The translations under genes and the position numbers were made by a program. A stretch of DNA of 64,000 bases, from the NCBI RefSeq assembly GCF_040219335.1, contig NZ_JAVJSQ010000029.1:496001-560000 (forward strand), in the 5' to 3' direction. Below are positions 4,297 to 44,751 of this stretch, piece after piece; position 1 is the stretch's first letter; every line of letters starts with the position of its first letter. The notes under the pieces are model-generated. The model was not told where the DNA came from and did not search any database. It saw only the letters and a list, made by a program, of their open reading frames with translations. The stretch comes from Gimesia sp. GTDB taxonomy: Bacteria; Planctomycetota; Planctomycetia; Planctomycetales; Planctomycetaceae.

Positions 4297-4358
4297 GGTT
4301 TATTCAATTCATTCCACATTCAGGTTGGTATGGCAGGCACTCGATGGAGCCAATCTCA

Positions 4359-5279: not shown

Positions 5280-5614
5280 GAGTTGTGTACCAAGAGTCTG
5301 TGTTGAACTAAACGGAACAGCGGTCCTGAGCAGGTTCGATTCTGGACCTCTGTTATACCAAACTGGAAACCAGGATGCGATGATTCCAGGGGATTGACTC
5401 CCGGAATCAGACACACAGCCTGCTATGGGTTGCCACCGATGGTCTGTTATGACGGTCAGGCGGGTTTTCGGGACTGTAGTGGCTGATCGGAACAGGCAAG
5501 CAGACAAATTTCCAGAAGAGAAAGCGAGGCCGTTCGGGTTCCCTGAAAATCTTGATTGACGGCTCAAGAAAAAACTGGAGAGTGCCCGGACGGGCTCGGT
5601 ATAATTCAGCTGCT
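5280..5614. other. Intergenic region between divergent genes
   Basis: 335 bases between the leftward lyase and the rightward zinc-ribbon gene. A perfect TATAAT lies at 5600-5605, only ten bases before the ATG at 5615, without a -35 box at the normal distance. Otherwise I see nothing in it. Confidence 0.45.
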
Positions 5615-5902
5615 ATGAAAAACGAACACGCAACGACAATCTGTCTGGAACATCAGTCTGCTGAGACGCAGGCGACTCCCCATGGGACGGTCTGCCCGCG
5701 CTGCAAACAGAGACTGTATACGAATCCTCCCGAGGGCAATCTGATGAGCTTCTGGGAAAGTCAGCCTGTGGCTTACACGCTGGAACGGGAGCCCTGCTTT
5801 GCGTATTCGCTTCTGTGGGAGAACTTTCGCATACGATCACTGCATCTGCCGGATGCCTCTACAGCAGACGAGCCTGCAAAACAGCTGAAGTCTCACTTCT
5901 GA
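5615..5902 (+). CDS. Small putative zinc-binding protein, unknown function
   Basis: 95 residues from the ATG at 5615; an in-frame ATG lies at 5552 but it has no ribosome binding site and the residues before 5615 look non-coding. Cys10 and His13 (CLEH) and Cys27 and Cys30 (CPRC) could hold one zinc ion in a ribbon. The rest, with FWESQPVAYTLERE, has no motif I know. It stands alone between a divergent lyase gene and the convergent DUF1445 gene (9 bases apart). I do not recognise the family, and expression is not certain. Confidence 0.45.
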   Translation: MKNEHATTICLEHQSAETQATPHGTVCPRCKQRLYTNPPEGNLMSFWESQPVAYTLEREPCFAYSLLWENFRIRSLHLPDASTADEPAKQLKSHF

Positions 5903-5911
5903 ACCCGCGAT

Positions 5912-6709
5912 TTAGCGCGTGGCCAGTTGTTCGTCTTTCCAGTCAGTGACGAACATGCAGCCGGGACTGTGCGTGATCGCAAATTCCGGCTTCGCTTCCA
6001 TCAACACCGTCTGCGGCGTCACTCCACAGGCCCAGAAGACAGGTAATTCACCCTCATGGACCGGAACGGGGTCTCCAAAATCCGGCTGGCCCAGATCGGC
6101 AATTCCCAATTGGTCGGGAAAACCCAGATGCACTGGTTCCCCATGGACAGCCGGGAAACGCCCCGTGATCTGGATCGCGCGGATCGCATCGGCCGGGAGA
6201 AAGGGACGCATGGAAACGACCAGTGGACCGGAAAAGATCCCCGCTGATTCACAAGAAACATTCGTGCGATACATGGGGACGTTAACGCCCAGATCGATGT
6301 GTCTCACAGGCAGTCCTGCACGAATCATTTCTGCTTCGAAAGTGAACGAGCAACCGATCAGAAATGCCACCAGGTCGTCCTGCCAGAGGTGGGAGATGCT
6401 TGTTGGTTCTTCTACCAGTTCACCCGATTCCCAGACGCGGTAACGGGGCAGGTCGGTCCTCAAGTCCGCGTCGGGAGTCGACTGCCGCGGGCAGGGATCT
6501 CCGGCATTCGTCACTTCCAGAACAGGGCAGGGTTTTGGGTTTTTCGCACAGAACTCGCGAAAGTGAGCTGCCTCGGCTTCATGAAGGATCACCAGATTCG
6601 CCTGGGCGAACCCGGGAGCGAGTCCCGAGGTCTGCCCGGAGAACTGATCGGTACGACAGGCTTCACGCACAGCCGCACCGGTTAACAGTGAAGCACGATC
6701 AATGCTCAT
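5912..6709 (-). CDS. DUF1445 / YcsI-family putative hydro-lyase
   Basis: 265 residues, the normal length for the family. Typical stretches are the N-terminal [16 protein letters not shown] opening, [19 protein letters not shown] near residue 105-125, NVPMYRTN, and the C-terminal block FWACGVTPQ ... [12 protein letters not shown]. Family members are annotated as hydro-lyases; a mitochondrial relative acts as D-glutamate cyclase, giving 5-oxo-D-proline. That link is worth noting because a 5-oxoprolinase-type gene lies just upstream in the same direction, beyond the cyclophilin gene. It starts 5 bases after the cyclophilin stop, so the two are likely co-transcribed. Confidence 0.85.
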
Positions 6710-6714
6710 CGCGG

Positions 6715-7251
6715 TTATTTTTCCTTGGCGATCACTTCGGAACCCGTGATTTTGACTTCATCCAGTGGACGATCACCGTGGTCGGTATCGACATTACCAA
6801 TTTCGAGTACGACGGCTTCGCTCTCTTTGTCGCTGGTTCTGCCAAAGACGGTATAGGAGTTGTCCAGGTGAGGTACGCGGCCCAGGCAGATGAAGAACTG
6901 AGAACCAGCGGAATTCGGGTCACTAGTGCGAGCCATCGAGAGCACGCCGGTTTCGTGGGGAATATTGTTGAATTCCGCGTCGATCGTGTAACCCGGACCA
7001 CCAGTGCCTGTGCCTTGGGGGCAGCCGACCTGGATCACGAAATCGGGAATAACACGGTGGAAGATAATCCCGTCATAGAATCCGATTTTTGTCAGTCCGA
7101 TCAGGTTCTTGCAGTGCCCGGGAGCCACATCGGGATAGAGGTCCATGCGAATGGTTCCCTTGGTGGTTTCAAAGACGACCTGGTAGTCAAACTTATCGAA
7201 ATCAACATCAGCCAACGCGGCATCAACTTCGGCGCGACGGTTTTGAGACAC
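6715..7251 (-). CDS. Cyclophilin-type peptidyl-prolyl cis-trans isomerase
   Basis: 178 residues from a GTG at 7251, chosen because an AAGGAAG Shine-Dalgarno lies about seven bases upstream and the cyclophilin fold begins soon after; an open frame up to 7329 has no such site. Catalytic-fold residues are visible: [17 protein letters not shown] (Arg and Phe of the active site), [18 protein letters not shown] and [10 protein letters not shown]. There is no signal peptide, so it is probably cytoplasmic. It is followed 5 bases later by the DUF1445 gene. Confidence 0.9.
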
Positions 7252-7424
7252 GGTACTCTTCCTTCTTAGATTTTGTTCTATAAATAGTGAGTGATACGTT
7301 TCTATTGGGTATAGCGCTACCTTACCCACTGCAGGGCGAAATCACAAAGCAGAACTCCCGATTATTAAATGAGAGGTCCCAATTAACGTCAGCTAATTCA
7401 CGGCAACAGTGAACAAACTGTTGG

Positions 7425-10400
7425 TCACTTTGCTGGTGTGTTACCGGGTGTCCCGTAGCCACCGCCACCTGGCGTTTTGATGGTCAATGTATCGCCCGCA
7501 TCTACAGAAATGGAGAGTTTCCCTCCCAGCGATTCCTCGGTCGACGTGCCTGCTTTCTGCAGCAGATTCTCGCCGATCTGTCCCGGTTCTCCTCCATCCA
7601 GGCCGAAGGGAGCGTAGTCGCCCCGTCGTTCAGAGAGCAGCGAGATTCGCAGCGGTTTCAGGAATTCGATCCGTCGGACGATGCCGTCACCTCCCCGGTG
7701 TTGACCTGCTCCTCCAGACCCGGTGCGGATCGAGAATTCATGCAGTCTGACCGGGTAGCGACGTTCGATAATCTCGGCATCGGTCAGTCGGGTATTGGTC
7801 ATATGCGTGTGGACGGCGTCAGTACCAGCGCTGTCTGCGGTCGCGCCACTACCACCGCAGATGGTTTCGTAGTAGCCGAATGTCTCATCGCCGAAAGTGA
7901 GATTATTCATCGTTCCCTGGCTGGCAGCTGCTTTACCCAACGCTCCGAGCAGAGTATCGACGGTTCGCTGCGAGGTTTCCACGTTGCCTCCCACCATCGC
8001 GGCACATTTGGCGGGAGAATCCCGTTCTGGAGGATTCAGGAAGCATTCAGGCAGTATGATTTCGACCGGAGCCAGTACGCCGCTGTTGAGCGGAATGTCT
8101 TCCTGAATCAGACAGCGAAAGACATAGAGCACTGCCGCGTTCACAATGGCGCGATTCGCATTCAGGTTGGTCTCCAGCACCGGTCCGGTGCCAGTGAAGT
8201 CGACAATGGCACGACTCCCCTGAATGGAGATTTTCACACAGAGCGGCGCACCATTATCAAGATGATCGGTAAACGAATAGTCGCCGTCTTCAATCGAAAT
8301 CAGTGCGAGCTGCATCTTTTCGGTGGCTGCCTGCTGAATGTGTTTCATGTAAGCCTGGACGACCGGCAGGGAATAGCGATGCACGAGATCATTCAGCAAA
8401 GTGACACCACAATTATTCGCCGCAACCTGCGCGGAGACATCTGACAGGTTATCAGCCACTGAACGCGAAGGATGTTCGCCAGAAAGTAACAGTTCGCGGA
8501 GTTCCGCTTCACGGGAGGTGCCATGGTCGACCAGTTTGAAGTTTCGAATCAATACACCTTCATCGGCCAGTGTCTTAGAGAAGGGGGGCATACTACCGGG
8601 AACAATTCCACCGATCTCGGCATGATGTGCGCGGCTGGCGGTAAAAAATACGAGTTCTCCGCTTTCCGGATGATGCACAGGAGTGATCACGGTTACGTCG
8701 GGCAGATGGGAACCACCTCGATAGGGATCGTTGGTTACGAACACATCTCCCGGTCCCAGGTCCGGATTATCGGCGATGATCCGCTTTACCGTTTCACTCA
8801 TGGCTCCCAGGTGAACGGGGATGTGGGGCGCATTTACGACGAGGTCTCCCGTTGCGGAGAAGACAGCGCAACTGAAGTCCAGTCTCTCTTTGACGTTGGT
8901 GGAAATCGATGTTTTCTGGAGAGTGATTCCCATCTGCTCGGCGATGGACGCGAACAGGTTGTTGAAGATTTCCAGCATGACAGGATCGGCTTCGGTACTG
9001 ATATCTGCATGCCCGCCTGACTGCGGAGAGGTCTCCCGCATCAATGTTTCTCCGCGGGACAGAATCTCTGCAGTGAAGCCGGGATCGATAATCACCGTCG
9101 AGATCGCTTCACAGATGATCGCGGGGCCTGCGAGCTGATCGCCGGGCTGCAGGTCTTCCCGCAGATAAACGGCGGTCTCCTGAGCCTGTCCCTGAAAGTA
9201 GGCTGTTGTAGTTTCAACAGGTTGAGGGGTACGCGAGACCGGCTCCTTTGCGGGTAAATGGGGTTCTTCCATCAGTCCGACGATTTCCGTACGGATTGCA
9301 GTAACCTCAATTTCGCGGGCCGTGTGTTTGTAGCCATAGAGTCGCTGATGTTCCTGTTCGAACTGCGTACGCTCATCCAGTCCCTGCTGGCAACGAACCT
9401 GTATCGTGGCGTCGGTGCCAAGGTAACGCATCTCAAGGGAATGTTCGGGGTCTTTGATCCGTTCCGGAGGAATACCTTCCGCGCGGACTTCGTCGTAAAC
9501 ACTCTGGTCGAGCGCTGCAAAGCGGTTCTGCAGTTCCTGCTGTAATTTATCTGACCAGGTCTCAAGAACCGACTGCTGACCAAAACGGCGTACATCGGCC
9601 TGCCCGATACCAAAGGCACTGAGGATACCGGAATAAGGATGGATCAGTACTTCGTGAATTCCCAGAGAACGGGCGATGGCACACGCATGTTGAGAACCGG
9701 CGCCGCCAAAACTGACCAGCACGTAGTCTGCAGGATCGTAACCACGGGCTACGGAAATGTTGCGGATCGCACGTACCATGTTGGCATTGGCGATCTGCAG
9801 GAACCCCTCAGCCAGTTCGAGGGGAGTGTATGTTTTTCCCATCGGGGAGGCGGCAATTTCCTCGCAGAGCGCCGTCAGACGCTGTTCGACCGCACCATGA
9901 TCGAGAGCAAACGGGAATCTGCTTGGGAGAATCTTTCCGAGGAAAAGATTCAGGTCAGTCACTGTCAGGGGGCCACCTCGTCCATAGCAGGCAGGGCCCG
10001 GATCCGCGCCTGCACTGGCGGGGCCGACGTGGAGCTTGATGCCGTCAAATCCGCAGATACTTCCCCCGCCGGCTGCGACGGTTTCGATGCTCAGCATCGG
10101 GGCAACGATCCGCACGCCGGCTTTACGGGTTTCGAATTCCCGCTCATAGACGCCGTCAAAGCGAGAGACATCGGTGCTGGTCCCTCCCATATCAAAGCCG
10201 ATCGAACGGGGGAAACCAGCTATTTCAGCGACTCGGGAATAACCTATCACACCTCCCGCGGGGCCCGAGAGGATGCTGTCTTTGCCGACGAAATGGGACG
10301 CGTCAACCAGACCGCCGGCGGAGGTCATCAGTTTGAGTTCGCAATTTTCCAGCGGAGTGCGGAGCTTCTTAATGTAGTCTTTAAGGATCGGATTCAGGTA

Positions 10401-11279
10401 GGCGTCCATGACCGTCGTGTCGCCGCGCGAGACGATTTTGATGAGTGGTGAAAGTCGGCTGGAAACGCTGATTTCATCAAAGCCGGCCTCTTCCGCGAGT
10501 CGGGCGACGAGTTCTTCATGCTCTGGGTTGGCAAAGGAGTGCAGCAGGCAGATCGCCAGAGATTCGACGCCGGTTGCTTTGAGTTCTGCTAACTGCTGGC
10601 GGATGATTTGCGGGTCAGGGGGCTGGAGAACATGCCCCTCAGAGTCGATTCGCTCGTTGATTTCGACCGTGCTTTCGAACAGAGGCTCCGGTTTCTGGAT
10701 CATGAGATCGAATAGCCGGGGGCGATCCTGGTTACCGATCAGGAGCACATCTGCGAAGCCTTTGGTGGTAATGAATGCGGTGCGGGCACCGTTACGGGTG
10801 AGCAGGGCGTTTGTCCCACGTGTCGTGCCGAGTTTCACAATGACATTGGAAATCGGTTCGGTTTTTTTGAGGCCGAGGATCCAGCGAATAGCGAGAACCG
10901 GAGCTTCTTCGCCTGATGAAAGTTCATAACCAGACGAGACAGAAACAGACTCAGGCAGACCGGGCGTGATTTGTAGAGAACCGGTGGCGGTGTCAAAGGA
11001 AGTTACTTGTGCCGAATGCACAGTCTGTCCCGCTTCATTCAGAAATACGATCTGGTATTCCTGCCAGAATTCTGCCGGATCACCCTGCCGGGAAGGGTCG
11101 ATAATGATCGTGGGATCAGGGATTTCCTGTATACGCCCTTTGGTGACACCCGAACTAAGAGTCTTAAAGGGGATGAACTCATTCCGGGGAGAGCGGGCGA
11201 TACAGTCTGTGAAGGTGCCGCCGACGTCGATCCAGAATTCCCACTTTTTTTCGATCTGATCCATTTTTGAGCCATTCAT
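7425..11279 (-). CDS. 5-oxoprolinase / hydantoinase A-B fusion
   Basis: A 1284-residue protein, close to the length of ATP-dependent 5-oxoprolinase. The N-terminal half is HyuA-like: [13 protein letters not shown] (about 14-26) is the ATPase phosphate loop, with [10 protein letters not shown] and [11 protein letters not shown] further on. The C-terminal half, from about residue 765, is HyuB-like ([42 protein letters not shown], late GGGGYGTP). Such enzymes open 5-oxoproline or hydantoin rings with ATP. Start may be the ATG at 11279 or the one at 11264; neither has a clear ribosome site. The nearby D-glutamate-cyclase-like DUF1445 gene fits 5-oxoproline metabolism, but hydantoin use cannot be ruled out. 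Confidence 0.9.
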
Positions 11280-11604
11280 ATCAGCAAAAATTTCGTAGCG
11301 ATTCCCCGGATTTTGGTGGAATTTTTTGAATTGCCTGACGTAGACTTACGTATGAAATAACAGAACCGGCGGGCGGACACAACGAACCTGCCGGGAAGTC
11401 GGACCCGGGGATCCGGCTGTGGTAAATTATGAAAAACAAAAGAGTTTCTGCTGGTACTTGAATTATGTGCAGTGTGGCTTATAATTGTCTCGCCCGCCTG
11501 CCCTTCCTCAAAACCGCAGTGCCGGCGGAACCGATGTTTAAAACGATGACCCATTCCGTGTTCGTCTGGAACATCTTTTCTCAATCACATGGAGAATTCA
11601 GTCA
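11280..11604. other. Intergenic region between divergent genes
   Basis: 325 bases between the leftward oxoprolinase and the rightward BI-1 gene. It holds the promoter described at 11458-11485. No gene is visible in it. Confidence 0.5.
11458..11485 (+). promoter_or_regulatory. Sigma-70-type promoter for the BI-1 family gene
   Basis: A -35 box TTGAAT (11458-11463) and a perfect -10 box TATAAT (11480-11485) are separated by 16 bases. The predicted transcript start leaves a leader of roughly 110 bases before the ATG at 11605. Confidence 0.55.
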
Positions 11605-12339
11605 ATGAACAACTACAGTCCTGACTACTATGACCAGGATACGACGGCCGGCCGCGGTATGTTTGCAATCGATGCGATTGCAGAAGAGCGCGCTGCTTTT
11701 ATCCGCAAAACGTACATGCACCTGACCGGTGCGATCTTTGTGTTTATGGGACTGGAATTTATCATTTTCAGTTCCCCCACCTTACTGCGCAGCGTACTGA
11801 GCCTGTTTACCGCCAGTCCCTGGATTATTTTGATTGCCTTCCTGGGAGCCAGCTGGTTAGCCAGTTCACTGGCATCAAGTGCGAAGTCCCTGGGGACACA
11901 GTATCTGGGCTTGGGATTATATACCCTGGCGGAAGCGATTATCTTTGTGCCGATCCTGTTTCTTGCCAGTCAGATGTCTAACCCGACCGTGATTCCGATT
12001 GCGGCGGTCATAACCCTCTGTATCTTCGGGGGCTTGACAGCTTACGTACTCGTGACGGGCGCAGACTTCTCCTTCCTGGGGGGAGGGCTGACGATTGCCC
12101 TGCTGGCAGCAATCGGGATTGCCATCGGTGCTGCGATCTTTGGAATCTCACTCGGACTCTGGTTTGCTGCTGCCATGGTCGTGCTGATGAGTGGTTTCAT
12201 TCTGTATGAAACTTCGAATGTCCTGCATCAGTACTCGACCGATCAGTACGTTTCGGCTTCACTGGCGCTGTTCGCCTCCGTTGCCACTCTGTTCTGGTAC
12301 GTGCTGCGGATCGTAATGATGTTTGCTTCGGAAGACTAA
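11605..12339 (+). CDS. Bax inhibitor-1 (BI-1) / YccA family membrane protein
   Basis: 244 residues with about seven hydrophobic segments between residue 40 and the C-terminus, after a short polar N-terminus. The family signature is seen in the early RAAFIRKTYMHLTGAI stretch and the late FWYVLRIVMMF ending. Members act as pH-dependent Ca2+ leak channels or as modulators of FtsH-type membrane proteases. A GGAGAA ribosome site precedes the ATG. The gene is monocistronic: it has its own promoter and ends at a clear terminator, facing the convergent msrP-like gene. Confidence 0.88.
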   Translation: MNNYSPDYYDQDTTAGRGMFAIDAIAEERAAFIRKTYMHLTGAIFVFMGLEFIIFSSPTLLRSVLSLFTASPWIILIAFLGASWLASSLASSAKSLGTQYLGLGLYTLAEAIIFVPILFLASQMSNPTVIPIAAVITLCIFGGLTAYVLVTGADFSFLGGGLTIALLAAIGIAIGAAIFGISLGLWFAAAMVVLMSGFILYETSNVLHQYSTDQYVSASLALFASVATLFWYVLRIVMMFASED

Positions 12340-12377
12340 GCAATACGCTGGTTGGACGAACCAACAATAGAAAATAG

Positions 12378-12411
12378 AGACCGGGTAGAGCATTTCTATC
12401 CGGTCTTTTTT
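12378..12411 (+). terminator. Rho-independent terminator of the BI-1 gene
   Basis: An 11-base stem (arms 12378-12388 and 12396-12406, one G-U pair) with a 7-base loop, running into a T tract at 12406-12411. It lies 38 bases after the BI-1 stop codon. Confidence 0.85.
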
Positions 12412-12462
12412 GCGCATTAAACTTGAGGTCTCAAGGCTTCCAGTTCGAAATTCGGGCGCAAC

Positions 12463-13470
12463 TTAACCTGTATAGAGACCGCCGACGTATTCCCCGTAAC
12501 CATTATAGATCTGGGTGTCGTAGCGTTTCTCGGTGCCCAGCATCCATTCCGTGCGTTGGCTCCAGCGGGGATGAGGTTGATCCGGATTCACATTGGCGAC
12601 GAACCCGTATTCCCCTGGATTTACCGTGTTCCAGAAGGTCGCGGGTTGCTCTGCGGTGAGTTTGATCTTTTCGATCGATTTACCCGACTTGAAGCCGTAT
12701 TTCCAGGGAACGACCAAACGGATTGGCGCTCCATTTTGTTTCAACAGTGGCTTCCCATACAGGCCGGTGGCGATGAAAGCGAGATCGTTCATCGCTTCCT
12801 CAATGGTCAGACCTTCGGTATAAGGCCAGGGCCAGGTGCCAGCTCCACTTCTCTCCATGTAAGGCGCCTCCTGGGGTTTGTTGAACGTTTCAAAGGCGAC
12901 GTACTTGGCTGAGGGTTTCGGTTCAACCAGCTTAAGCAGACTTGCCAGCGGGAAACCGGTCCAGGGAACACACATGGCCCAGGTTTCGACGCAACGATGG
13001 CGGTAGGCCCGCTCTTCGAACTGCATTTCCCTGTAGAGGTCATCCAGGTCAAACGTGCGGGGTTTGGCACAATCTCCTTCGATAGAGACCGCCCAAGGCG
13101 TAGTCTGAAATTTTCCGACGTACTTCCAGGCTTCTTTACTGGTGGGGCCTGTGAATTCGTAGAAGTTCGTGAACTCCTCTGCCTCGATTTCTGCTGTTTC
13201 AGGGCGGCCGTATTTAAAAGCTTCATTCCGCTTAGCCGGATAGATGGACTGCAGGGCTTCCGGCAATGGTTCGACTGCTCCCGCCTGTTCGATTTCTTCC
13301 TTGGTTGCCTGTTCACAGCCGGAGAGCAGATCAGCGAAGCCGGCGACACCCAGGCCATAGCCCATCAGTTTGAGGAATTCACGGCGATGCGATTTGCGCT
13401 TCTGATAAACGGATTCGGGGGTGTGGGCATGTTCCGGGACATGCCAGATTTTTCGGAGCAGGTGATTCAT
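12463..13470 (-). CDS. msrP: MsrP/YedY-type molybdopterin-dependent methionine sulfoxide reductase
   Basis: 335 residues matching MsrP, the periplasmic Mo-MPT enzyme that repairs oxidised methionine in exported proteins. A twin-arginine signal is present (SHRREFLKLMG, Arg29-Arg30). Cys160 in HRCVETW is the molybdenum ligand position, followed by VPWTGFPL, then VPWKYGFKSGKSIEKI and the late WSQRTEWMLG. The Tat signal ends in LLSGC with Cys52, a lipobox, so the enzyme may be lipid-anchored; classical MsrP is soluble and works with the membrane haem protein MsrQ, which is not encoded beside it here. An AAAGGA ribosome site precedes the ATG at 13470. Confidence 0.9.
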   Translation of the reverse strand: MNHLLRKIWHVPEHAHTPESVYQKRKSHRREFLKLMGYGLGVAGFADLLSGCEQATKEEIEQAGAVEPLPEALQSIYPAKRNEAFKYGRPETAEIEAEEFTNFYEFTGPTSKEAWKYVGKFQTTPWAVSIEGDCAKPRTFDLDDLYREMQFEERAYRHRCVETWAMCVPWTGFPLASLLKLVEPKPSAKYVAFETFNKPQEAPYMERSGAGTWPWPYTEGLTIEEAMNDLAFIATGLYGKPLLKQNGAPIRLVVPWKYGFKSGKSIEKIKLTAEQPATFWNTVNPGEYGFVANVNPDQPHPRWSQRTEWMLGTEKRYDTQIYNGYGEYVGGLYTG

Positions 13471-31095: not shown

Positions 31096-32016
31096 TCAGA
31101 ATTCTCCAATGACTTCTCCGCCATTGATCGTAATGAGGGCGAAGAGGATGTTGGCATCAATCGATTCCGAGAGCATGTGAACCGAACCATCTGCGAAAGA
31201 AGCTTGTGCGCCGCCTGTATGAAAACTGTAGATTCCCTGACTGTTATTACAGTTGATGGAACAGGTCCCTACGGGGCCATCGCGGGTGACGGCATCACTG
31301 CCGAAGACCTGGACCTGAAACACCTGATAGGACGGCCAGGATCCCCAGCTGGTTGCCTGGCTCAAACCAGCATTCGATGGTTGTTTAATTCCACGAATGT
31401 AATAGTCGGGACGGCCCGCCTGTTCGGTAATCAACATGGTATTCGTCGTTCCATCTGTGATATCCCGGAACTTGCGAGTGCGGGGCAGATCGTCCATGGC
31501 TGTGATCTGGTTGTTTCCGCTTAAGCTTGAGACTCCATACAGATTGGAGCGAAAGCTGTTCGGACCGAAGTAGTCTCCTGCAATGCCTTCCGATGAAACA
31601 CCACTGACGAGAACGGTGATCGGACGCGGTCCGGGAGCAGAAGGGCACATGAAAACTTTGAGAGGTACTTTTATATTGTCTGCGTTTTCGGGGTCGTAAA
31701 AATTCTTGTTGAAATCATATCGTCCCTGCAGATTTGCCTGATCGAGATAGGGTAGAATTGAAGGACCCCATCCGCGGCGGTTTCCTGATGAAAGAATTCT
31801 ACGCGGGGGAAGAACTCTGAATGCGGATTCGTAGTTGTGCGCCGCCAGAGCAATCTGTTTGAGATTATTCTTACAACTCATCCGTCGCGCGGCTTCACGA
31901 GCCTGTTGTACGGCTGGAAGTAAAAGTGCGATCAGAATCGCGATGATGGCGATGACAACTAGCAGTTCAATCAGCGTAAAGCCGAAACGCGGTTTTCTGG
32001 TGGACAATCGGGCCAC
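31096..32016 (-). CDS. DUF1559 pilin-like protein
   Basis: 306 residues. A canonical prepilin peptidase site is present: Gly12 followed by FTLIELLVV with Glu17, then a long hydrophobic helix and the family's [21 protein letters not shown] stretch. The C-terminal H[16 protein letters not shown] block is the DUF1559 signature. Such proteins are very numerous in planctomycetes and are assumed to be processed and assembled like pseudopilins. It is the first gene in the leftward run ending with the EF-hand protein. Confidence 0.93.
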
Positions 32017-34760: not shown

Positions 34761-35804
34761 ATGAGTCAGTCTGGAAGCTTGAGAAAACGTGGGTTCACAT
34801 TGATTGAACTGCTGGTGGTGATTGCCATTATAGCAATCCTGATCGCGCTGTTGCTGCCTGCGGTTCAGCAGGCACGTGAGGCAGCACGACGTTCGACCTG
34901 CAAAAACAGTATGAAGCAGATCGGACTGGCGATGCAGAACTATCACGATGTGCACAACACCTTTCCTCCAGGATATGTCACTAAAACGCACTGCAGTTCT
35001 GCTTCGGTCTGGTCTGGCTGCAATCAGGGGGAACTGGGTGTTTACGGCTGGGGGGCGTTTATACTGCCCTTTATCGATCAGGCTCCCTTGTACAATCTGC
35101 TTAATATTGGTGGTGTGACGCTGGATCAGAATCTGGCGAATGCCAGTACTCGACAGGCATTGCAGCAGCCATTGGCTATTTTTCTCTGTCCCTCAGATCC
35201 GGGGCCGAGCCTTAACGACTACGTTTCCGGTACGAACAATTATAATTTTACAGTTACAGATGGAACGACACCCTATCAGATTGCCCGTTCCGATTATGTG
35301 ATGGTGGCCAATGCCTGGGACAGTACGACGCCTCCCGTATATTCCGTTTCCTATGGCGCGGCACATGGAATTGGATACGCGAATTCCCGGGTTCGTTTTC
35401 GGGATATCATCGATGGTAGCAGCAACACCATTCTGGTTGGCGAACGAGCTTACATTTATAAGAGTACAAATAAGGTGGGTGGCGCCAATGTGATTGGCTT
35501 TTCCGGATCGAATAATACCCAGAGCAGCAGTTATGCCCGCAAGGGAAATGGCATGGCGGTGCTGGGGCTGACGTATAACGGTATCAATGCATTGGCGGGA
35601 GCCGAGCATGATGTGCGAGGATTCAGCAGTAATCATGTTGGTGGGGCGCATTTTGTTTTCTGCGATGGATCGGTGCATTTCCTCAGTGAGAACATTGATT
35701 ACAAGAAAGGATCGGTGTCCACGGCCAATTATCTGCAGAACATCAATTCCACGTTTCAAAGGCTGGCGGTTCGAGATGATGGCCAGGTGGTTGGTGAATT
35801 CTAA
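34761..35804 (+). CDS. DUF1559 pilin-like protein
   Basis: 347 residues with a canonical prepilin site (Gly11, then FTLIELLVV with Glu16), a hydrophobic helix and [21 protein letters not shown]. The body has the family's DGTTPYQIARSDYV and SSNTILVGERA stretches and ends with the NHVGGAHFVFCDGSVHFLSE block. It is paired with the upstream lipoprotein and ends before a hairpin. It is the third DUF1559 copy within 5 kb but belongs to a different transcription unit from the other two. Confidence 0.93.
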   Translation: MSQSGSLRKRGFTLIELLVVIAIIAILIALLLPAVQQAREAARRSTCKNSMKQIGLAMQNYHDVHNTFPPGYVTKTHCSSASVWSGCNQGELGVYGWGAFILPFIDQAPLYNLLNIGGVTLDQNLANASTRQALQQPLAIFLCPSDPGPSLNDYVSGTNNYNFTVTDGTTPYQIARSDYVMVANAWDSTTPPVYSVSYGAAHGIGYANSRVRFRDIIDGSSNTILVGERAYIYKSTNKVGGANVIGFSGSNNTQSSSYARKGNGMAVLGLTYNGINALAGAEHDVRGFSSNHVGGAHFVFCDGSVHFLSENIDYKKGSVSTANYLQNINSTFQRLAVRDDGQVVGEF

Positions 35805-37622: not shown

Positions 37623-38624
37623 ATGCGGATTGCACTGGATGCAATGGGGGGAGATTTTGCCCCTGAACCGAACATAAAGGGAGCGATCGACGCATTGCAG
37701 GCGGAACCCGCTCTGGAAGTGGTGCTGGTGGGTCCGCAGGATCTTCTTGAATCACAGATTGAGGCTTCCGGTTACAGCGGAGATCGTCTGTCGATCGTGC
37801 ATGCCAGTCAGGTGGTGGGGATGGAAGAAAAACCCACCGAAGCCATGCGGCAAAAGCCTGACAGCTCTATCTCGGTCTGCTGGAAACTGATGGCGGCGCA
37901 CGAAGTAGATGCAGTTGTCAGTGCAGGCAATACCGGTGCGGTAGTCGCATCGGGTTTGAAGACGCGGCTCTTTCTGAAAGAAGTTAAGCGTCCCGGGATT
38001 GCCGTCACGCTGCCAACTGTGGCTGGCCACGCTGTTCTGATGGACGTTGGGGCAAACCCTTCTGCTCGTCCGGCGCACCTGTATCAGTATGCAGTCATGG
38101 GCGAGATCTATGCACGCGAAGTGCTGGGCGTGGCATCACCTAAGGTTGGTCTGATCAATATCGGCAGTGAAGACGTTAAGGGGAACGATCTCTATCGTGA
38201 TACCTATCGTCTGCTAAACGACAGCCCGCTTAAAGGGAGCTTCGTAGGTAACGTCGAAGGGCGGGGCTTATACCAGGGAGAGGCAGACGTTCTGATCTGC
38301 GAAGGTTTCGTCGGAAATGTGGTGCTCAAAGTCAGCGAAGGTATGGCTGAATTCCTGATGAAGGAAGCGTCACAGCAGATTCTGGGGAGCCTCGATCAGG
38401 AGAAGGGGCAGGCATTGCAGGCGTTTCAGGAGATGGCCAAGCGATTCCGCTATCATGAGACAGGCGGAGCTCCGCTGCTGGGAATTGACGGGATTTGCAT
38501 TATCTGTCATGGTTCCAGTGATGCCCACTCTATCACGAATGCCTTGAAAGGAAGTATCATGTTCAAGGATCGTGGCATCAATTCCCAGATCGCCGAACAT
38601 CTGGCTCAAAAGCCGGTAGCTTAA
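37623..38624 (+). CDS. plsX: Phosphate acyltransferase PlsX
   Basis: 333 residues, the normal length. Opens with MRIALDAMGGDFAPE, then VSAGNTGAVVASG, LMDVGANPSARP, VGLINIGSEDVKG and DVLICEGFVGNVVLK, all family signatures. PlsX turns acyl-ACP into acyl-phosphate for PlsY, the first step of phospholipid synthesis. It lies between rpmF and fabD in one transcription unit. Confidence 0.96.
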   Translation: MRIALDAMGGDFAPEPNIKGAIDALQAEPALEVVLVGPQDLLESQIEASGYSGDRLSIVHASQVVGMEEKPTEAMRQKPDSSISVCWKLMAAHEVDAVVSAGNTGAVVASGLKTRLFLKEVKRPGIAVTLPTVAGHAVLMDVGANPSARPAHLYQYAVMGEIYAREVLGVASPKVGLINIGSEDVKGNDLYRDTYRLLNDSPLKGSFVGNVEGRGLYQGEADVLICEGFVGNVVLKVSEGMAEFLMKEASQQILGSLDQEKGQALQAFQEMAKRFRYHETGGAPLLGIDGICIICHGSSDAHSITNALKGSIMFKDRGINSQIAEHLAQKPVA

Positions 38625-38677: not shown

Positions 38678-39586
38678 GTGAGCAGAATCGCCTTTTTGTT
38701 TCCCGGACAGGGTGCTCAACACGTAGGTATGGGTAAGACCATCGTCGAGAAATATCCGGCTGCGAAAGAGCTGTTTGATCGCGCAGCGGATATTCTTCAG
38801 TATGATCTGGCAAAGCTCTGCTTCGAAGGGCCGAGTGAAGAACTGGATTCTACGGTCATCAGTCAGCCGGCACTGTTTGTGACCAGTCTGGCTGCTCTGG
38901 AAATGCTGCGGGCGGATTCTCCCGATAAGGTTCTGGCGTGCGAAATGACGGCCGGATTGAGCCTGGGGGAATACACGGCTCTGGTATTTGCCGGTGCAAT
39001 GAGTTTTGAGGATGGCCTGCGGGTCGTTCAGCGTCGTGGCGAAGCCATGCAGGCTGCTGCGGATGCCAACCCTTCCGGTATGGTCAGCATTCTGTTGCTG
39101 GACCGGGATAAGGTCGCAGAAATCTGTGAGGCCGCTTCTTCAGCCGGAAGGATCTGGATCGCCAATTATCTGTGTCCGGGTAATATTGTGTTATCAGGTG
39201 AAAACAGCGCCTGCGAGCGGGCAGCAGAACTGGCTGAACAGGAAGGTGGGCGTGCGATTCCCCTGGCGGTGGCTGGTGCGTTTCATACTGAAATCATGAA
39301 GCCCGCTGATAGTAAACTATCCGAAGCTCTGGCAGGAGTAGGACTGAAAAAACCGGAAATTCCGGTGATTTCCAACGTGGACGCCAAAACTCATGAAGAT
39401 CCGGACGAGATTCGCGAATTACTGATTCGCCAGGTTCTCAGTCCTGTGCTCTGGGAGGATTCGATCCGCGCCATGCTGGATGCGGGATTTGATGAATTCT
39501 ATGAAATCGGTCCTGGGAAAGTTTTGAAGGGGCTGATGAAGCGTATTAATCGCAAGATTTCCTGTGAGACGGTTAACGATTCATAG
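38678..39586 (+). CDS. fabD: Malonyl-CoA:ACP transacylase
   Basis: 302 residues from a GTG at 38678, with an AGAGGGA site upstream. FabD loads malonate onto ACP. GQGAQHVGMGK (10-20), the nucleophile Ser95 in GLSLGEYTAL and His203 in GAFHTEIM form the catalytic pieces. The usual GHSLGE reads GLSLGE, a variant typical of plant plastid and cyanobacterial enzymes, to which the whole block SFEDGLRVVQRRGEAMQ also looks close. It follows plsX directly; fabH and fabG, often in this cluster, are not present. Confidence 0.95.
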   Translation: MSRIAFLFPGQGAQHVGMGKTIVEKYPAAKELFDRAADILQYDLAKLCFEGPSEELDSTVISQPALFVTSLAALEMLRADSPDKVLACEMTAGLSLGEYTALVFAGAMSFEDGLRVVQRRGEAMQAAADANPSGMVSILLLDRDKVAEICEAASSAGRIWIANYLCPGNIVLSGENSACERAAELAEQEGGRAIPLAVAGAFHTEIMKPADSKLSEALAGVGLKKPEIPVISNVDAKTHEDPDEIRELLIRQVLSPVLWEDSIRAMLDAGFDEFYEIGPGKVLKGLMKRINRKISCETVNDS

Positions 39587-39975: not shown

Positions 39976-40209
39976 GTGTCAATTGAAGAAAAAGTGGTTG
40001 GTATCGTAAGCGAGCAGTTAGGCCATCCTAAAGAAGACATCACTCTCGACAGCAAGTTTATTGACGACCTGAAGGCTGATTCACTCGACATTGTCGAACT
40101 GGTAATGGAATTCGAAGATGAATTCGATGTCACCATTCCTGACGATGATTATGACAAAATCAAAACCGTTGGTGATGTGGTTGGCTATATCACTGAAAAA
40201 GCCAGCTGA
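39976..40209 (+). CDS. acpP: Acyl carrier protein
   Basis: 77 residues from a GTG at 39976, with GAAGGAGAAG just before it. The attachment serine for phosphopantetheine is Ser36 in the ADSLDIVEL motif. The protein is acidic and four-helical by pattern, as is usual. It carries growing acyl chains for FabD, FabF and PlsX, all encoded around it. Confidence 0.97.
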
Positions 40210-40292: not shown

Positions 40293-41537
40293 ATGCGCAG
40301 GAGAGTCGTCGTTACCGGAGTTTCTGTCGTAACGGCTCTGGGTTTAGATGTCTCAGAGTTTTGGGACAAGTTGTGCGCTGGTAAAAGCGGTATCGGTCCC
40401 CTCGAACGTTTTGACTGCTCCGACTACAAAGTCCGTTTTGGCGGCGAAATCAAAGATTTCAACGCAGCCGATTATACGAATCTTTCTTCAAAAGATCTGA
40501 AGCGAGTCGATCGTTTCGTCCAGTTTGGTCTGGTTGGGGCGCATATTGCCTACCGCCAGGCACAGTTGGAAGGGTTTGAGGGAGATCCTTATCGCAGAGG
40601 CGTCCTGATTGGCAGTGGTATCGGCGGTTTGAATGAAATTGAAAACCAGCACGATAAGCTCTACAACCAGGGCCCGGCGCGAGTATCGCCTTTCATGATC
40701 CCCAAGTTGATGGTCAACGCTGCCAGTGGGAATATTTCAGTTGCTTATGAACTGAAAGGTCCTAATAGTGCTGTGGCGACCGCTTGTGCTTCGGCGACAA
40801 ATGCGATCGGCGATGCCTACAAGCTGATTCAGAATGATGTGGCTGATATCATGGTGACTGGCGGCAGCGAAGCGGCAGTCACTCCGATGGGGCTTTCCGG
40901 CTTTGCCCGGATGAACGCTCTGTCCACGCGAAATGATGATCCCCAGGCGGCCAGCCGTCCTTTCGATCGTGATCGCGACGGGTTCGTGATGGCGGAAGGT
41001 GCCGGCATCGTCGTTCTGGAAGAGTACGAACACGCCAAAAAACGGGGTGTACCAATTCTGGCTGAGGTAGTCGGTTATGGCATGTCTGCTGATGGCACGC
41101 ACATGACGGCCCCTGATCCGGAAGGCCGTGGTGCAGCCCGTGCCATGCTGCATGCAATCAAGGACGCCGGGCTGAACCCGGAAGATATTGATTACATCAA
41201 TACGCATGGTACGAGTACCCCGCTGGGTGATGTTGCAGAAACCGTGGCCATCAACACCGTCTTTGGTTCGCACGTCAAATCGATGCCTGTTTCCAGTACG
41301 AAAGGGCATCTGGGGCACCTGCTGGGGGCTTCTGGTGGTGTCGAGTTCGTGGTGGGCGTCAAGGCGCTGATGGAGCAGGTCGCACCTCCTACGATTAACC
41401 TGGACAATCCAGACGAGCGGTGCAATCTCGATTATGTTCCCAATGAGCCACGCGAAATGAAGCTCGAGCGGGTGATGAAGAACAGCTTCGGATTCGGTGG
41501 ACATAACGCCTGTCTGATTATGCAGAAAGCCCCTTAA
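40293..41537 (+). CDS. fabF: Beta-ketoacyl-ACP synthase II
   Basis: 414 residues with a complete Cys-His-His catalytic set: Cys165 in ATACASATN, His305 in INTHGTSTPLGD and His342 in KGHLGHLLGASG, with Lys337. FabF elongates acyl-ACP with malonyl-ACP. It follows acpP by 83 bases. A second ketosynthase-like gene with altered catalytic residues follows after a 415-base gap. Confidence 0.96.
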   Translation: MRRRVVVTGVSVVTALGLDVSEFWDKLCAGKSGIGPLERFDCSDYKVRFGGEIKDFNAADYTNLSSKDLKRVDRFVQFGLVGAHIAYRQAQLEGFEGDPYRRGVLIGSGIGGLNEIENQHDKLYNQGPARVSPFMIPKLMVNAASGNISVAYELKGPNSAVATACASATNAIGDAYKLIQNDVADIMVTGGSEAAVTPMGLSGFARMNALSTRNDDPQAASRPFDRDRDGFVMAEGAGIVVLEEYEHAKKRGVPILAEVVGYGMSADGTHMTAPDPEGRGAARAMLHAIKDAGLNPEDIDYINTHGTSTPLGDVAETVAINTVFGSHVKSMPVSSTKGHLGHLLGASGGVEFVVGVKALMEQVAPPTINLDNPDERCNLDYVPNEPREMKLERVMKNSFGFGGHNACLIMQKAP

Positions 41538-41952
41538 TAGCAGGGCTTGTTCTGGTGTCTGGTGTGTGCTCGTCTGTATATATCTCCGGCGCTCGATGGT
41601 TGTCCTGCTGCTCCCGAAGAGATTTCCCGGATAATTATTGATCTGGCAGTCGCGTCAGGCTTGAAAATCGCGCCTCGATTGTCTTGACTATCTCCTGTTG
41701 CCGGTTCATTACTGGGTCAAAATAGTGTACGAATGTCTGATTTTTGTGGTTGAGCTGGGTTCAAGTCCAAAGCAGACGCTCGTCAGTTGGTCTCGGCGTG
41801 CTGAATATCAGCAGTATCTATCCTGGGAAGAGGGTTTTTAGTGCTGAGGTAGGCAAAAGTCTTGTCTGGACCAGATTATCCTCTACGATGAAGTTACATT
41901 ATTCACAAGCAGCCGGCATATTCGATTAGCGGGACTTTCAAAAGAGATTCAA
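41538..41952. other. Intergenic region between fabF and the ketosynthase paralogue
   Basis: 415 bases without a credible gene. A TTGACT at about 41684 lacks a good -10 box. The length suggests that the paralogue has its own promoter. Nothing else is seen. Confidence 0.4.
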
Positions 41953-43254
41953 ATGAATACAGAATCACGACGTCGTATTCTGATTACCGGGATGGGGATT
42001 CTCAGCCCGATCGGAATTGGAACAGAAGCGTTTCAGGCCAGTCTGATGTCGGGGACTTCGGGCATTAAAAAATCAGAGCTGTATGATTTCCTGGCAGCTC
42101 CTGACACCTGCGTGGCGGAAGTCTCTGATTTCAATGACAGTACGATTAAAAAAGAGTATCTGAAGCAGCAGCGCAGAAGTCTCAAAGTGATGTGCCGCGA
42201 AATTCAGCTGGGTGTTGCTTCTGCCAATCTGGCGATGGATGATTCAGGGATCGACTTGGAAACCGTCGACAGCGAACGTTTTGGGATTGAGTTTGGTGCG
42301 AACCTGATGCTCAGCCCTCCGGAAGTGCTTTACAGCGCCTGCATGGCCAGCACCGAAGGCACCGAGTTTCAATACGAAAGATGGGGGACAGACGGCCTTC
42401 CCAAGATGGAGCCACTTTGGCTGCTGAAATATCTGCCGAACATGCCGGCCTGTCACATCGGAATTGTGATGGATGCGCGCGGTCCCAGCAACTCGATCAC
42501 GCAGGCTGAAGCGTCCGGTAATCTGGTGCTGGGTGAAGCTCAGAGGATTATCGAACGTGACTGGGCTGATGTCATGGTCGCTGGTGTGACTGGAACCCGG
42601 ATACATGAAGTCAAATCGATTCACGCGAAGTTGTGGGATGAACTGGCTGACTCTCCGGCAGATTTCTCAAAACGTTCTCGTCCTTTTGATAAGGCACGTA
42701 ATGGTCAGGTCGTGGGTGAAGCAGCCTGCTCACTGTTGCTGGAAGAGAAATCTCATGCTGAGAAGCGTGGGGCCAAGGTCTGGGGCGAACTGCTCGGGAC
42801 TGGTGCTTCCTGTGTTGTAGGTCGGGATGGTGTTCCTGATACCCGGACTTCGATTGCCAATGCCATTAAACTCGCATTTAAGCGTGCTGGTGTCGAAGCA
42901 GGGGATATTGGTCATATTAATGCTCACGGTTTGGGTGATACCAAGCTGGATGTCGAAGAGTATCAGGCGATTTGTGACATCTTTGGTGACAAGGCGACAG
43001 AAATTCCGGTTACTGCTCTGAAGAGTTACTTTGGTAATTCCGGATCCGCCTGTGGAATCGTGGAGGCCAGTGGTTCACTGGTGGGGCTGAAGCAGGGAGT
43101 TATTCCGGTGACATTAAATTATGAAACTCAGGATGCAGATTGTCCGTTGAATGTGGTTCGAAATGAGCCGCAGCCGACCGACAACAAGCTGTTCCTGAAG
43201 ATCAGTACCACGACTTTTGGCCAGGCCAGTGCCTCGGTTGTCTGTGGCGTCTGA
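41953..43254 (+). CDS. Ketosynthase-like protein lacking catalytic Cys and one His
   Basis: 433 residues with the thiolase fold of FabF-type enzymes (ITGMGILSPIG at the start, GQVVGEAACSLLLEE, ALKSYFGNSGSACG near the end). The nucleophile position holds Glu186 (TQAEASGN instead of TACASG), and the last active-site His is Asn362 (GNSGS instead of GHxxGA). His325 (NAHGLGDT) and Lys357 remain. It therefore cannot act as a normal condensing enzyme. Chain-length factors of type II polyketide synthases also lack the Cys and pair with an active partner; a malonyl decarboxylase or structural partner of FabF are the main possibilities. Ends at a strong terminator. Confidence 0.85.
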   Translation: MNTESRRRILITGMGILSPIGIGTEAFQASLMSGTSGIKKSELYDFLAAPDTCVAEVSDFNDSTIKKEYLKQQRRSLKVMCREIQLGVASANLAMDDSGIDLETVDSERFGIEFGANLMLSPPEVLYSACMASTEGTEFQYERWGTDGLPKMEPLWLLKYLPNMPACHIGIVMDARGPSNSITQAEASGNLVLGEAQRIIERDWADVMVAGVTGTRIHEVKSIHAKLWDELADSPADFSKRSRPFDKARNGQVVGEAACSLLLEEKSHAEKRGAKVWGELLGTGASCVVGRDGVPDTRTSIANAIKLAFKRAGVEAGDIGHINAHGLGDTKLDVEEYQAICDIFGDKATEIPVTALKSYFGNSGSACGIVEASGSLVGLKQGVIPVTLNYETQDADCPLNVVRNEPQPTDNKLFLKISTTTFGQASASVVCGV

Positions 43255-43270
43255 ACTCGAATCAATCATT

Positions 43271-43310
43271 GAAAAAGCCCCGCCGGGATGATCCTGGCGG
43301 GGCTTTTTTT
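43271..43310. terminator. Strong bidirectional rho-independent terminator
   Basis: A 13-base GC-rich stem (arms 43276-43288 and 43292-43304, one G-U pair, 3-base loop) is flanked by an A run on the left and T7 on the right, so it can serve both the ketosynthase-like gene and the convergent TPR gene. Confidence 0.93.
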
Positions 43311-43329
43311 ATTGTCATTTCAGGATGAA

Positions 43330-44751
43330 TCAGAATTTCTTGAGTGCGTACTGAGCACCGCGGTAGGCGGACAGGTTACGCATGCCGGTATTCAGTGACT
43401 GCTGGAAGTTCTGCGTAGCGGTTGCTGTCTCGCCAGCCAGCAGGGCCTTCTGACCAATGAAATAGTGAGCTTCACAGGTTTGTGCCTTGGCGCGTTGCGG
43501 GTCCTTCTGGTCAATGGATTTAAGCAGGTCTGCTTCGGTCACGCCGCCCATCAGGTATGCGGTGAGCATGTCGACCGAGTCGCGCGCTTCGGGTTTTTCG
43601 GCGAGGACTGTCTGGAATTTTGCGTCCGCCTCTGCCTTCTGGTTGTTGCGGACCATGGCTAGATAGACCCAGGGGTTAAGCACCTTCATCTGGTCCTGTG
43701 CCAGTTGGGTGGCCTGATTGAACTGGGTCAGGGCTTCATCGTAATTCTGGTTGAAGAAGTAGGAGAAACCCAGGTCGGAGTGCAGTGCAGGGTTCTGAGG
43801 GTCGAGTTGCACGGCGCGGGTCTGGTCCTGGATGGCTTCGGCAATTTTCCCTTGCAGCAGGCGGGCTTCCCCACGCATTCCCAGTACAAAGGGCTGCTCA
43901 GGGGCGATCGAGAGGGACTTATTCAGGTCCGCTTCTGCAGTGTCGGGTTTGCCCCCTTCCAGGTAGGCGAAGCCGCGGTTGGTGATGGCGTGGTGATAGT
44001 TGGGGTCGAGCTGGATTGCCCGGGAGAAGTCATTGATTGCCTCCTGGAGCTTTCCCTGCTGCTGGTAGAACATCGCCCGGTTGTTGTAGACCACGGGGGA
44101 ATTGGGTTGTTTTTCGATGACCTGGTTAAAGCTGGCCAGTGCCTGGTCGTTTTCACCAGCCAGGGCGTAAGCGTCGGGCAGCGCGAGCAGGGCGGCGAAA
44201 TGGTTTGGCGAGAGTTTGATGGTTTCTGAGAAGTCCTGTGCCGCTTCGCGGGGCTTGTTCAGAGGAAGATAAATCATGCCCCGCTGATAATGGAAGTTGG
44301 CGCGTTCCTCTGTGCTCAGGTTGGGGCGAGCCAGGATCTGGTTGGCCACATTCAGTGCTGTCTCCGCATGGCTTTTCTTGTTTTCCATGACAGCCAGGTT
44401 CATCATGCCGTACAGGTAGGGCAGGTAGTAATTGACATTCTGGTTCTGGCTGTAGCGAATGGCTTCACGGGCATCACTGACGCCTTCCCGGATCGTCTGG
44501 GTATTTCCCTGCTCCCGGCCTGATTCCACGCGGGCACTGGCACGCAGGTAGTAGGCGACATGGTCGTCGGGCTTCTGCTGCAGAACCTGTGAGGCGAGCT
44601 GGACGGACTTGTTGTAGTCTCCCTGCTGCTGGGCCTGGTCGGCCTGCATTTTCAGTTGGGAGAATGGATCATTGGTGGTGGCGGTTGGTTGGGCTGCCGC
44701 GGCGAGGGGAAGCCCCAGGCAGAGGATCAGTGCAGGCAGTAAGCGAGCCAT
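43330..44751 (-). CDS. Secreted TPR-repeat protein
   Basis: 473 residues with a signal peptide (about 1-20, cleavage near AAAAQP). From about residue 35 onward it consists of tetratricopeptide repeats of 34 residues: GDYNKSVQLASQVLQQKPDD, YNNRAMFYQQQGKLQEAIND, AITNRGFAYLEGGKPDTAEA and others, roughly ten in all. TPRs bind partner proteins; here probably in the periplasm or equivalent compartment. It is a single gene facing the strong terminator and diverging from nusA. Confidence 0.85.
   Translation of the reverse strand: MARLLPALILCLGLPLAAAAQPTATTNDPFSQLKMQADQAQQQGDYNKSVQLASQVLQQKPDDHVAYYLRASARVESGREQGNTQTIREGVSDAREAIRYSQNQNVNYYLPYLYGMMNLAVMENKKSHAETALNVANQILARPNLSTEERANFHYQRGMIYLPLNKPREAAQDFSETIKLSPNHFAALLALPDAYALAGENDQALASFNQVIEKQPNSPVVYNNRAMFYQQQGKLQEAINDFSRAIQLDPNYHHAITNRGFAYLEGGKPDTAEADLNKSLSIAPEQPFVLGMRGEARLLQGKIAEAIQDQTRAVQLDPQNPALHSDLGFSYFFNQNYDEALTQFNQATQLAQDQMKVLNPWVYLAMVRNNQKAEADAKFQTVLAEKPEARDSVDMLTAYLMGGVTEADLLKSIDQKDPQRAKAQTCEAHYFIGQKALLAGETATATQNFQQSLNTGMRNLSAYRGAQYALKKF

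Follow-up and report, generated by a model that had tools for sequence, protein, structure and literature searches.

In ketosynthases, the catalytic nucleophile is located where a buried helix begins, beside the oxyanion hole. KSQ proteins have a Gln at this position and keep the decarboxylating His pair and the Lys, and decarboxylation of the KSQ type requires that His pair. Chain length factors, the KS-beta subunits of type II polyketide synthases, are inactive ketosynthase homologues found in obligate heterodimers, in which a channel at the interface limits elongation, and priming enzymes of the FabH type use a Cys-His-Asn triad, as described in the accessible part of a published account (PMC12664062). 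A catalogue of type II KS-CLF pairs includes Planctomycetes among its phyla, possibly through proteins of the type described here (PMC10132072). Replacement of the nucleophilic Cys by Glu or Asp is already known in one species, Rhodopirellula baltica, in which the FabF paralogues RB3714 and RB4527 carry Asp163 and Glu163, respectively (Rattray 2009, PMC2649909). Table 2 of that paper gives Glu163, His298, Leu300, Asp302, Lys328, and Asn333 for RB4527. The available sections suggest a different substrate or the recruitment of non-FAS products for the R. baltica paralogues, name no partner role, and also report inactive FabF paralogues in Kuenenia (PMC2649909). Noncanonical FabF genes of Kuenenia (Kuste3606 and Kuste2805 type) have been placed beside FabF, ACP, and FabZ in the accessible part of a further study (PMC4790861). 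Moreover, AmcG, the "cyclization factor" of cispentacin synthesis, is a partner of the KS-like AmcF without functional motifs and is said, in the excerpt available, to miss some of the secondary structures of chain length factors (PMC10698177); it belongs to a different pathway from the protein described below and can be likened to it by description alone. Literature searches restricted to open-licence PMC papers found, in the texts accessible, no description of a partner role, of conservation, or of tandem ancestry for proteins of this type.

The gene analyzed here encodes an acid-substituted pseudo-ketosynthase, termed E-KS, and lies in a housekeeping fatty acid cluster within a 64,000-nucleotide stretch of a Gimesia contig (the window; Table 1). 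An earlier note on this DNA had read Glu186 in place of the nucleophilic Cys and Asn362 in place of the second catalytic His, in a gene that is intact at 433 residues. Glu186 was confirmed by its GAA codon, and both replacements were confirmed by alignments including planctomycete FabF sequences and E. coli FabF, from which all site positions were assigned. The pattern of RB4527 equals that of E-KS at Glu186, His325, Leu327, Asp329, Lys357, and Asn362 (six of the eight positions in Table 2 of PMC2649909, accessible in part, were compared), and RB3714, with Asp163 and both His, resembles a second pseudo-ketosynthase of the same genome, D-KS; both correspondences were judged by residue pattern and not from the R. 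baltica sequences. In the scanned region from 41400 to 43500, no terminator-like stem-loop was found between fabF and E-KS.

Table 1. Coordinates of E-KS, its active-site codons, and neighboring features in the window
Feature	Position	Strand	Basis or remark
PlsX (FA_synthesis)	37623..38624	+	ORF and Pfam
FabD-type malonyl transferase (Acyl_transf_1)	38678..39586	+	ORF and Pfam
Acyl carrier protein	39976..40209	+	ORF and Pfam
FabF, above equivalog cut-off, proposed partner of E-KS	40293..41537	+	E-KS follows after 415 bp
E-KS, acid-substituted pseudo-ketosynthase, 433 aa	41953..43254	+	Intact ORF, ATG start
Glu186 codon GAA, nucleophilic Cys position	42508..42510	+	Alignment with FabF sequences
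His325 codon, first catalytic His position	42925..42927	+	His in 80 of 106 relatives
Lys357 codon	43021..43023	+	Lys in 105 of 106 relatives
Asn362 codon, second His position	43036..43038	+	Asn in 86, Ser in 20 of 106 relatives
Terminator-like stem-loop 3' of E-KS	43271..43309	+	Sole one in 41400-43500; shuffles mean 1.9

E-KS reached 97.4 and 64.3 bits against the Pfam ketosynthase domains PF00109 and PF02801 (cut-off, 20.8), and 255.4 bits against the NCBIfam fabF equivalog TIGR03150, below the cut-off of 493.75, for which the neighboring FabF scored 613. The Cys-His-His triad of FabF is replaced by Glu186, His325, and Asn362, and in terms of the FabH-type triad, the His and Asn are present and the Cys is absent. 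An AlphaFold model, built on a shallow alignment, gave a full ketosynthase (pLDDT, 86.3; pTM, 0.85), with FabF 1j3n_A as the best PDB match (Z 57.2; rmsd 2.4; 401 residues aligned). The 50 matches listed also include the actinorhodin KS chain (Z 55.5) and the C163Q variant of E. coli FabF (Z 55.1). In a control model of KS3, the active ketosynthase described below, stretches with pLDDT <50 were placed differently from those of E-KS; no inference is drawn from this contrast, because the alignment was shallow in each case (16 and 17 rows). Two different ketosynthase chains are on record for the PDB entries 9s5h and 9s5i. The fold and its match to FabF would also suit a regular condensing ketosynthase whose active site is atypical, which is nevertheless highly improbable, given that the fabF equivalog cut-off is missed by half and that the Cys is absent from every one of the 106 relatives considered next.

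An E-KS orthologue (at least 393 bits; two or three partial) is present in 99 of 101 sampled genomes of the family, and the two genomes with no match are 86% (G005) and 79% (G010) complete. The nearest relatives, among the best 80 of 578, come from Gimesia and other Planctomycetaceae. One contig titled Candidatus Kuenenia stuttgartiensis (L153) carries an E-KS of the Planctomycetaceae type, and this MAG is probably misnamed. Residues were counted in 106 full-length, nonredundant relatives with E-KS as their best reference match, identical sequences being counted once and 2 of 108 being dropped for a length below 415 aa; in the tree, one of the 106 (L098) does not group with the E-KS clade. The nucleophile position holds Glu in 89 relatives and Asp in 17, and hence an acid in all and a Cys in none. 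Asn362 is matched by Asn in 86 and Ser in 20, with the second His absent throughout, so that the conservation in planctomycete orthologues, which the earlier note had proposed to check, extends to the acid and to Asn or Ser. The same note had stated that His325 and Lys357 stay; this holds for E-KS itself and for the Lys, kept in 105 of 106 relatives, but His325 is kept less strictly than the acid: only 80 relatives have His there, and the other 26 have Cys, Asn, Ser, Gly, or Gln. The complete E-H-K-N set occurs in 63 relatives, and His325 and Asn362 occur jointly in 78 (63 EHKN and 15 DHKN). Seven further residues, Met80, Arg82, Asn163, Met164, His168, Gly361, and Gln424, are identical in 106/106, and the surroundings of the catalytic site are gap-free across nine aligned E-KS rows.

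Selection on E-KS is strongly purifying, with dN/dS values of 0.053 and 0.052 against the two nearest relatives (three more pairs gave no usable dS). These values are above those of FabF (0.014, one pair), KS3 (0.018 to 0.020, pairs with dS <1), and D-KS (0.020 to 0.022). Decay of the gene, already dismissed in the earlier note, is ruled out by the intact frame and by a dN/dS of about 0.05.

D-KS is encoded on contig C19, is 42% identical to E-KS, and has an Asp at the nucleophile position together with both His; its acid is retained in 15 of 16 nonredundant rows. KS3 is encoded on contig C14, where the gene order is FabZ-like, FabG, a 128-aa ACP, FabZ, and KS3. The window's family usually has two pseudo-ketosynthase copies, E-KS and, elsewhere, D-KS, and both sit apart from KS3 in most of the Planctomycetaceae seen. 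Among 83 good genomes, D-KS (E <= 1e-125) was found in 75 and KS3 (E <= 1e-140) in 81. Outside the class, KS3 neighborhoods were examined in 17 of 26 genomes with KS3. In 13 of these 17 loci, KS3 is preceded on the same strand, within 0.7 kb, by a pseudo-ketosynthase; in three, the upstream ketosynthase has an intact Cys-His-Lys-His set (family f16); and in one (G102), no ketosynthase partner was found upstream of KS3. FabZ and ACP genes were recognized beside the pair in 5/13 pseudo-ketosynthase loci and in 3/3 f16 loci. The 13 tandem pseudo-ketosynthases have Glu or Asp at the nucleophile position in 11 cases, Asn in one, and Gln in one, and they keep the first His in 5 and the Lys in 7, while the adjoining KS3 has Cys-His-Lys-His in 13/13. 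With the first His lost in 8, the Lys in 6, and the acid in 2, the acid therefore outlasts the rest of the active site. The scanned genes flanking KS3 were mixed (seryl-tRNA synthetase, competence protein, GH3 protein, and others) and indicated no product. One KS3 run, at positions 4260-13128 of locus L099 (G153), looks like a small biosynthetic cluster, with FabZ, FabG, ACP, FabZ, an Asp-type pseudo-ketosynthase, KS3, and then a GH3-family protein; it also holds a methyltransferase-looking protein and a protein that clusters with a DUF362/ferredoxin protein of locus L221.

These residue patterns bear on what E-KS could do by itself. The earlier note had offered decarboxylation of malonyl-ACP for priming as one role. 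A decarboxylase of the KSQ kind would make acetyl-ACP, and His325 and Asn362 could act in it like the His and Asn of FabH-type enzymes; the triad of those enzymes and the joint presence of both residues in 78/106 relatives would be in line with this. E-KS also shares with KSQ loading domains and with FabF C163Q a replaced nucleophile in a kept fold, but it differs from KSQ in having Glu or Asp, a negative charge instead of the neutral Gln, a variable first His (80/106), and no second His (106/106). The decarboxylase is disfavored because the His pair is not conserved among E-KS relatives: His325 is missing in 26/106 and Asn362 in 20/106, as against 0/106 for the acid, and the 13 deeper relatives described above have lost the His and the Lys more often than the acid. 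The absence of fabH, which had been taken to fit a priming role, applies only to the cluster, and this argument fails because a FabH scoring above the cut-off (347.6 versus 292.1 bits) is encoded on contig C4 of the same genome. From sequence comparison, we therefore regard the decarboxylase as improbable.

Alternatively, E-KS might be a homodimeric enzyme or an acyl-ACP sensor, with the carboxylate serving as a base or nucleophile together with Lys357 and His325. An invariant acid, a nearly invariant Lys, the seven further identical residues, and purifying selection could all be explained in this way. Nevertheless, His325 is variable, relatives within the same clade lose the Lys and the His, and Glu and Asp interchange (89 and 17), which is unusual for a nucleophile, making a new chemistry of this kind quite unlikely.

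The ancestry of these proteins was addressed with a maximum-likelihood tree of 85 chosen rows, including 9 E-KS, 7 D-KS, 9 tandem pseudo-ketosynthases, 20 KS3, and others; one anammox ketosynthase of less than 340 aa was kept out of it. A single clade (support, 100/100) unites E-KS, D-KS, and the tandem pseudo-ketosynthases; it is sister (100/98) to the intact f16 upstream ketosynthases, and both join KS3 and a Streptomyces ketosynthase (L188) in a clade supported at 100/100. A quick 76-row tree, which had nine D-KS, L005, and ApeR that were left out of the 85-row tree, agrees on the pseudo-ketosynthase clade and its sister and leaves several deeper forks open. The arrangement reads as a duplication into a tandem pair, followed by the loss of catalysis in one member. 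The clade also stands apart from Streptomyces chain length factors in the tree. Forcing it into one clade with three such sequences (two annotated chain length factors and a third labeled by us) cost 22 log-likelihood units at an AU p of 0.078 (0.065 in an earlier test), so a common clade is not rejected, and a separate origin from the Streptomyces chain length factors is no more than likely. A single clade of these proteins and the anammox inactive ketosynthases was rejected (AU p 0.002), unlike the tree in PMC2649909, which, in the part available, groups the R. baltica and Kuenenia paralogues.

Taking these observations together, our preferred reading, to which we assign a probability of roughly 45%, is that E-KS may be a noncondensing, chain-length-factor-like heterodimer partner of FabF in the housekeeping fatty acid synthase. 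As in chain length factors, the nucleophilic Cys is absent and the gene of the dead homologue adjoins that of a working ketosynthase, and the history is similar. At the four sites, two annotated Streptomyces chain length factors have Gln, Asp, Lys, and Arg, the same kind of lesion as in E-KS, which differs in having an acid instead of Gln and in lying within a housekeeping fatty acid cluster. In the mechanism that we envisage, E-KS would pair with the FabF encoded beside it, and the shared interface could shape the acyl channel or the docking of ACP. The Glu or Asp carboxylate would lie where the buried helix begins, by the oxyanion hole, like the Gln of the two Streptomyces chain length factors, and, together with the retained Lys357, might hold an acyl-enzyme-like shape, with the carboxylate standing in for the acylated Cys. 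The full E-H-K-N set in 63/106 relatives exceeds the needs of an inert subunit and counts against this reading.

A heterodimer with the adjacent FabF that sets chain length had also been suggested in the earlier note, and the suggestion fared unevenly: tandem descent, adjacency, and the covariation described next support it indirectly, and other results weaken it. E-KS lies on the same strand as fabF and within 3 kb of it in 36/83 genomes, or 36/49 when both are on one contig, and the two are adjacent in 8/15 genomes with both on contig C1. The adjacency lists comprised 95 genomes for E-KS (without G000, G020, G029, and G084) and 86 for FabF (without G000, G055, G078, and G084). Among 66 evaluable named loci, which overlap the 83-genome set, E-KS is beside fabF in 31 and not beside it in 35, and the latter figure weakens the case for FabF as the partner.

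Branch-rate covariation was measured for E-KS, D-KS, KS3, FabF, and NusA, the last being the only unrelated control. Of the 42 genomes that have all five, one was kept for each genus (36 genera; G328 was left out). A fixed topology with 69 branches was used, each pair was corrected for the average of the remaining three proteins, and the statistics treat branches as independent. E-KS covaried with FabF (partial rho 0.56; p 6e-7) more than with KS3 (0.22). D-KS/KS3 reached 0.35 (p 0.003), and the remaining pairs were lower (KS3/FabF, 0.26; E-KS/NusA, 0.24; E-KS/D-KS, 0.23; D-KS/FabF, 0.20; rest, 0.10 to 0.16). On the 36 terminal branches, the values were 0.42 (p 0.01) for E-KS/FabF, 0.24 for E-KS/KS3, 0.37 for D-KS/NusA, and 0.32 (p 0.06) for D-KS/KS3. 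With a topology from NusA, KS3, and D-KS, and thus without E-KS and FabF, E-KS/FabF rose to 0.60 and E-KS/KS3 fell to 0.11; with a NusA-only topology, they were 0.45 and 0.22, and the preference of D-KS for KS3 was gone (0.25 versus 0.32 for FabF). The signal was also found in 19 genera in which the genes are not adjacent (E-KS/FabF, 0.68; E-KS/KS3, -0.03), where present linkage cannot explain it. In the 17 fabF-adjacent genera, by contrast, E-KS/KS3 (0.62) exceeded E-KS/FabF (0.39), which weakens the FabF reading. Bootstraps in four runs preferred FabF over KS3 for E-KS in 100, 92.8, 99.0, and 17.6% of cases, the last being the adjacent genera, and preferred KS3 over FabF for D-KS in 76.8, 39.4, 76.6, and 90.8%. 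Bit-score covariation given NusA, which also counts against FabF, showed no E-KS/FabF signal (0.08 in 60 genomes; 0.01 in 36) and gave 0.46 for D-KS/KS3 (60 genomes); this single-reference test is cruder, with three Gimesia genomes and genomes missing any of the five values left out, and the tree-based test is preferred. On the whole, E-KS and FabF are the most likely pairing, and likewise D-KS and KS3, with neither proven.

The same data allow another partner. E-KS could be a chain-length-factor-like partner of KS3, in the FabZ-FabG-ACP-FabZ-KS3 setting, competing or alternating with D-KS, so that its site beside fabF would be an old insertion. The ancestral pairing of the pseudo-ketosynthase clade is with KS3, and the covariation in the fabF-adjacent genera points the same way. 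In a draw of 294 genomes from the phylum, 25 matched E-KS at E <= 1e-75. In G113, G141, and G161, the match was to a Cys-bearing ketosynthase, and all of the remaining 22 also carry KS3 (E <= 1e-125); such co-occurrence discriminates little, because KS3 is found in 97/101 family genomes. In G058, E-KS follows KS3 on the same strand at a distance of 1.7 kb, and one E-KS copy is convergent with a KS3 in G083, two cases that also weaken the FabF reading, and the second KS3 copies of G066 and G037 have a pseudo-ketosynthase just upstream. However, E-KS/KS3 covariation is weak over the 36 genera (0.11 with the independent topology), it is D-KS that tracks KS3 (0.35 to 0.36; weaker with the NusA-only topology), and no pseudo-ketosynthase adjoins the second KS3 copies of G070, G096, and G048. 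In G096, the gene just upstream of the second KS3 (L297, 6434-9100) is FabF-like instead, at 53% to the FabF of the window. On balance, KS3 seems a rather unlikely partner for E-KS.

Returning to the pairing with FabF, a wider scenario for the whole planctomycete family is tentative and less probable than not. The elongating enzyme of the housekeeping fatty acid synthase would be a FabF/Glu-ketosynthase heteromer, in which the inert subunit determines chain length or the specificity for ACP. The origin of this subunit would lie, apparently apart from the chain length factors of polyketide synthesis, in a tandem ketosynthase pair of which one member decayed; it would then have been duplicated, with one copy moving from KS3 to FabF. 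Chain length factors are known from polyketide systems, and to find one at work in primary fatty acid synthesis would be a surprise and would offer a handle on planctomycete membrane lipids. Since intermediate states have been sampled (an intact pair; acid present with the rest kept; acid present with the rest eroded), the origin of a dead subunit becomes experimentally testable. A similar logic may underlie the parallel inactive ketosynthases that were described in 2009 from anammox ladderane clusters.

As in the pairs of the E-KS clade, the anammox ladderane candidate clusters have an active and an inactive ketosynthase together, but the inactive members have a Val or Phe, Asn, Lys, Glu signature, the opposite gene order, and a separate origin. 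Genomes were called anammox-type because of their hydrazine synthase-like genes and their match to the Kuenenia residues given in the available part of PMC2649909. Six loci of such genomes (L332, L333, L335, L337, L339, and L340; G307, G347, G297, G363, and G338) hold pairs of this kind, with Val/Phe-Asn-Lys-Glu in the inactive member (Phe-Gly-Lys-Glu in L339) and an order the reverse of the KS3 pairs; these may be additional pairs of the chain-length-factor type, located in ladderane candidate clusters. Directly behind the active ketosynthase, L334 (8553-9557) and L336 (8102-8896) of G347 and G184 have a more eroded second ketosynthase (353 aa), with Lys-Glu-Thr-Ser or Ser-Ser-Asp-Asn at the sites. 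In L338 (4612-5835; G363, anammox-type), an active FabF-like gene adjoins another Cys-less ketosynthase, which has Gly-Ser-Lys-Tyr and a very long branch. PF18582, the alpha domain of hydrazine synthase, scores above the cut-off in 57/294 genomes, six of them with 12 to 16 matches, and so does not seem to be restricted to anammox bacteria. Finally, two other genes of the window, at 31096-32016 and 34761-35804, have a common N-terminal stretch of 33 letters, which we take to resemble that of pilin-like planctomycete proteins.
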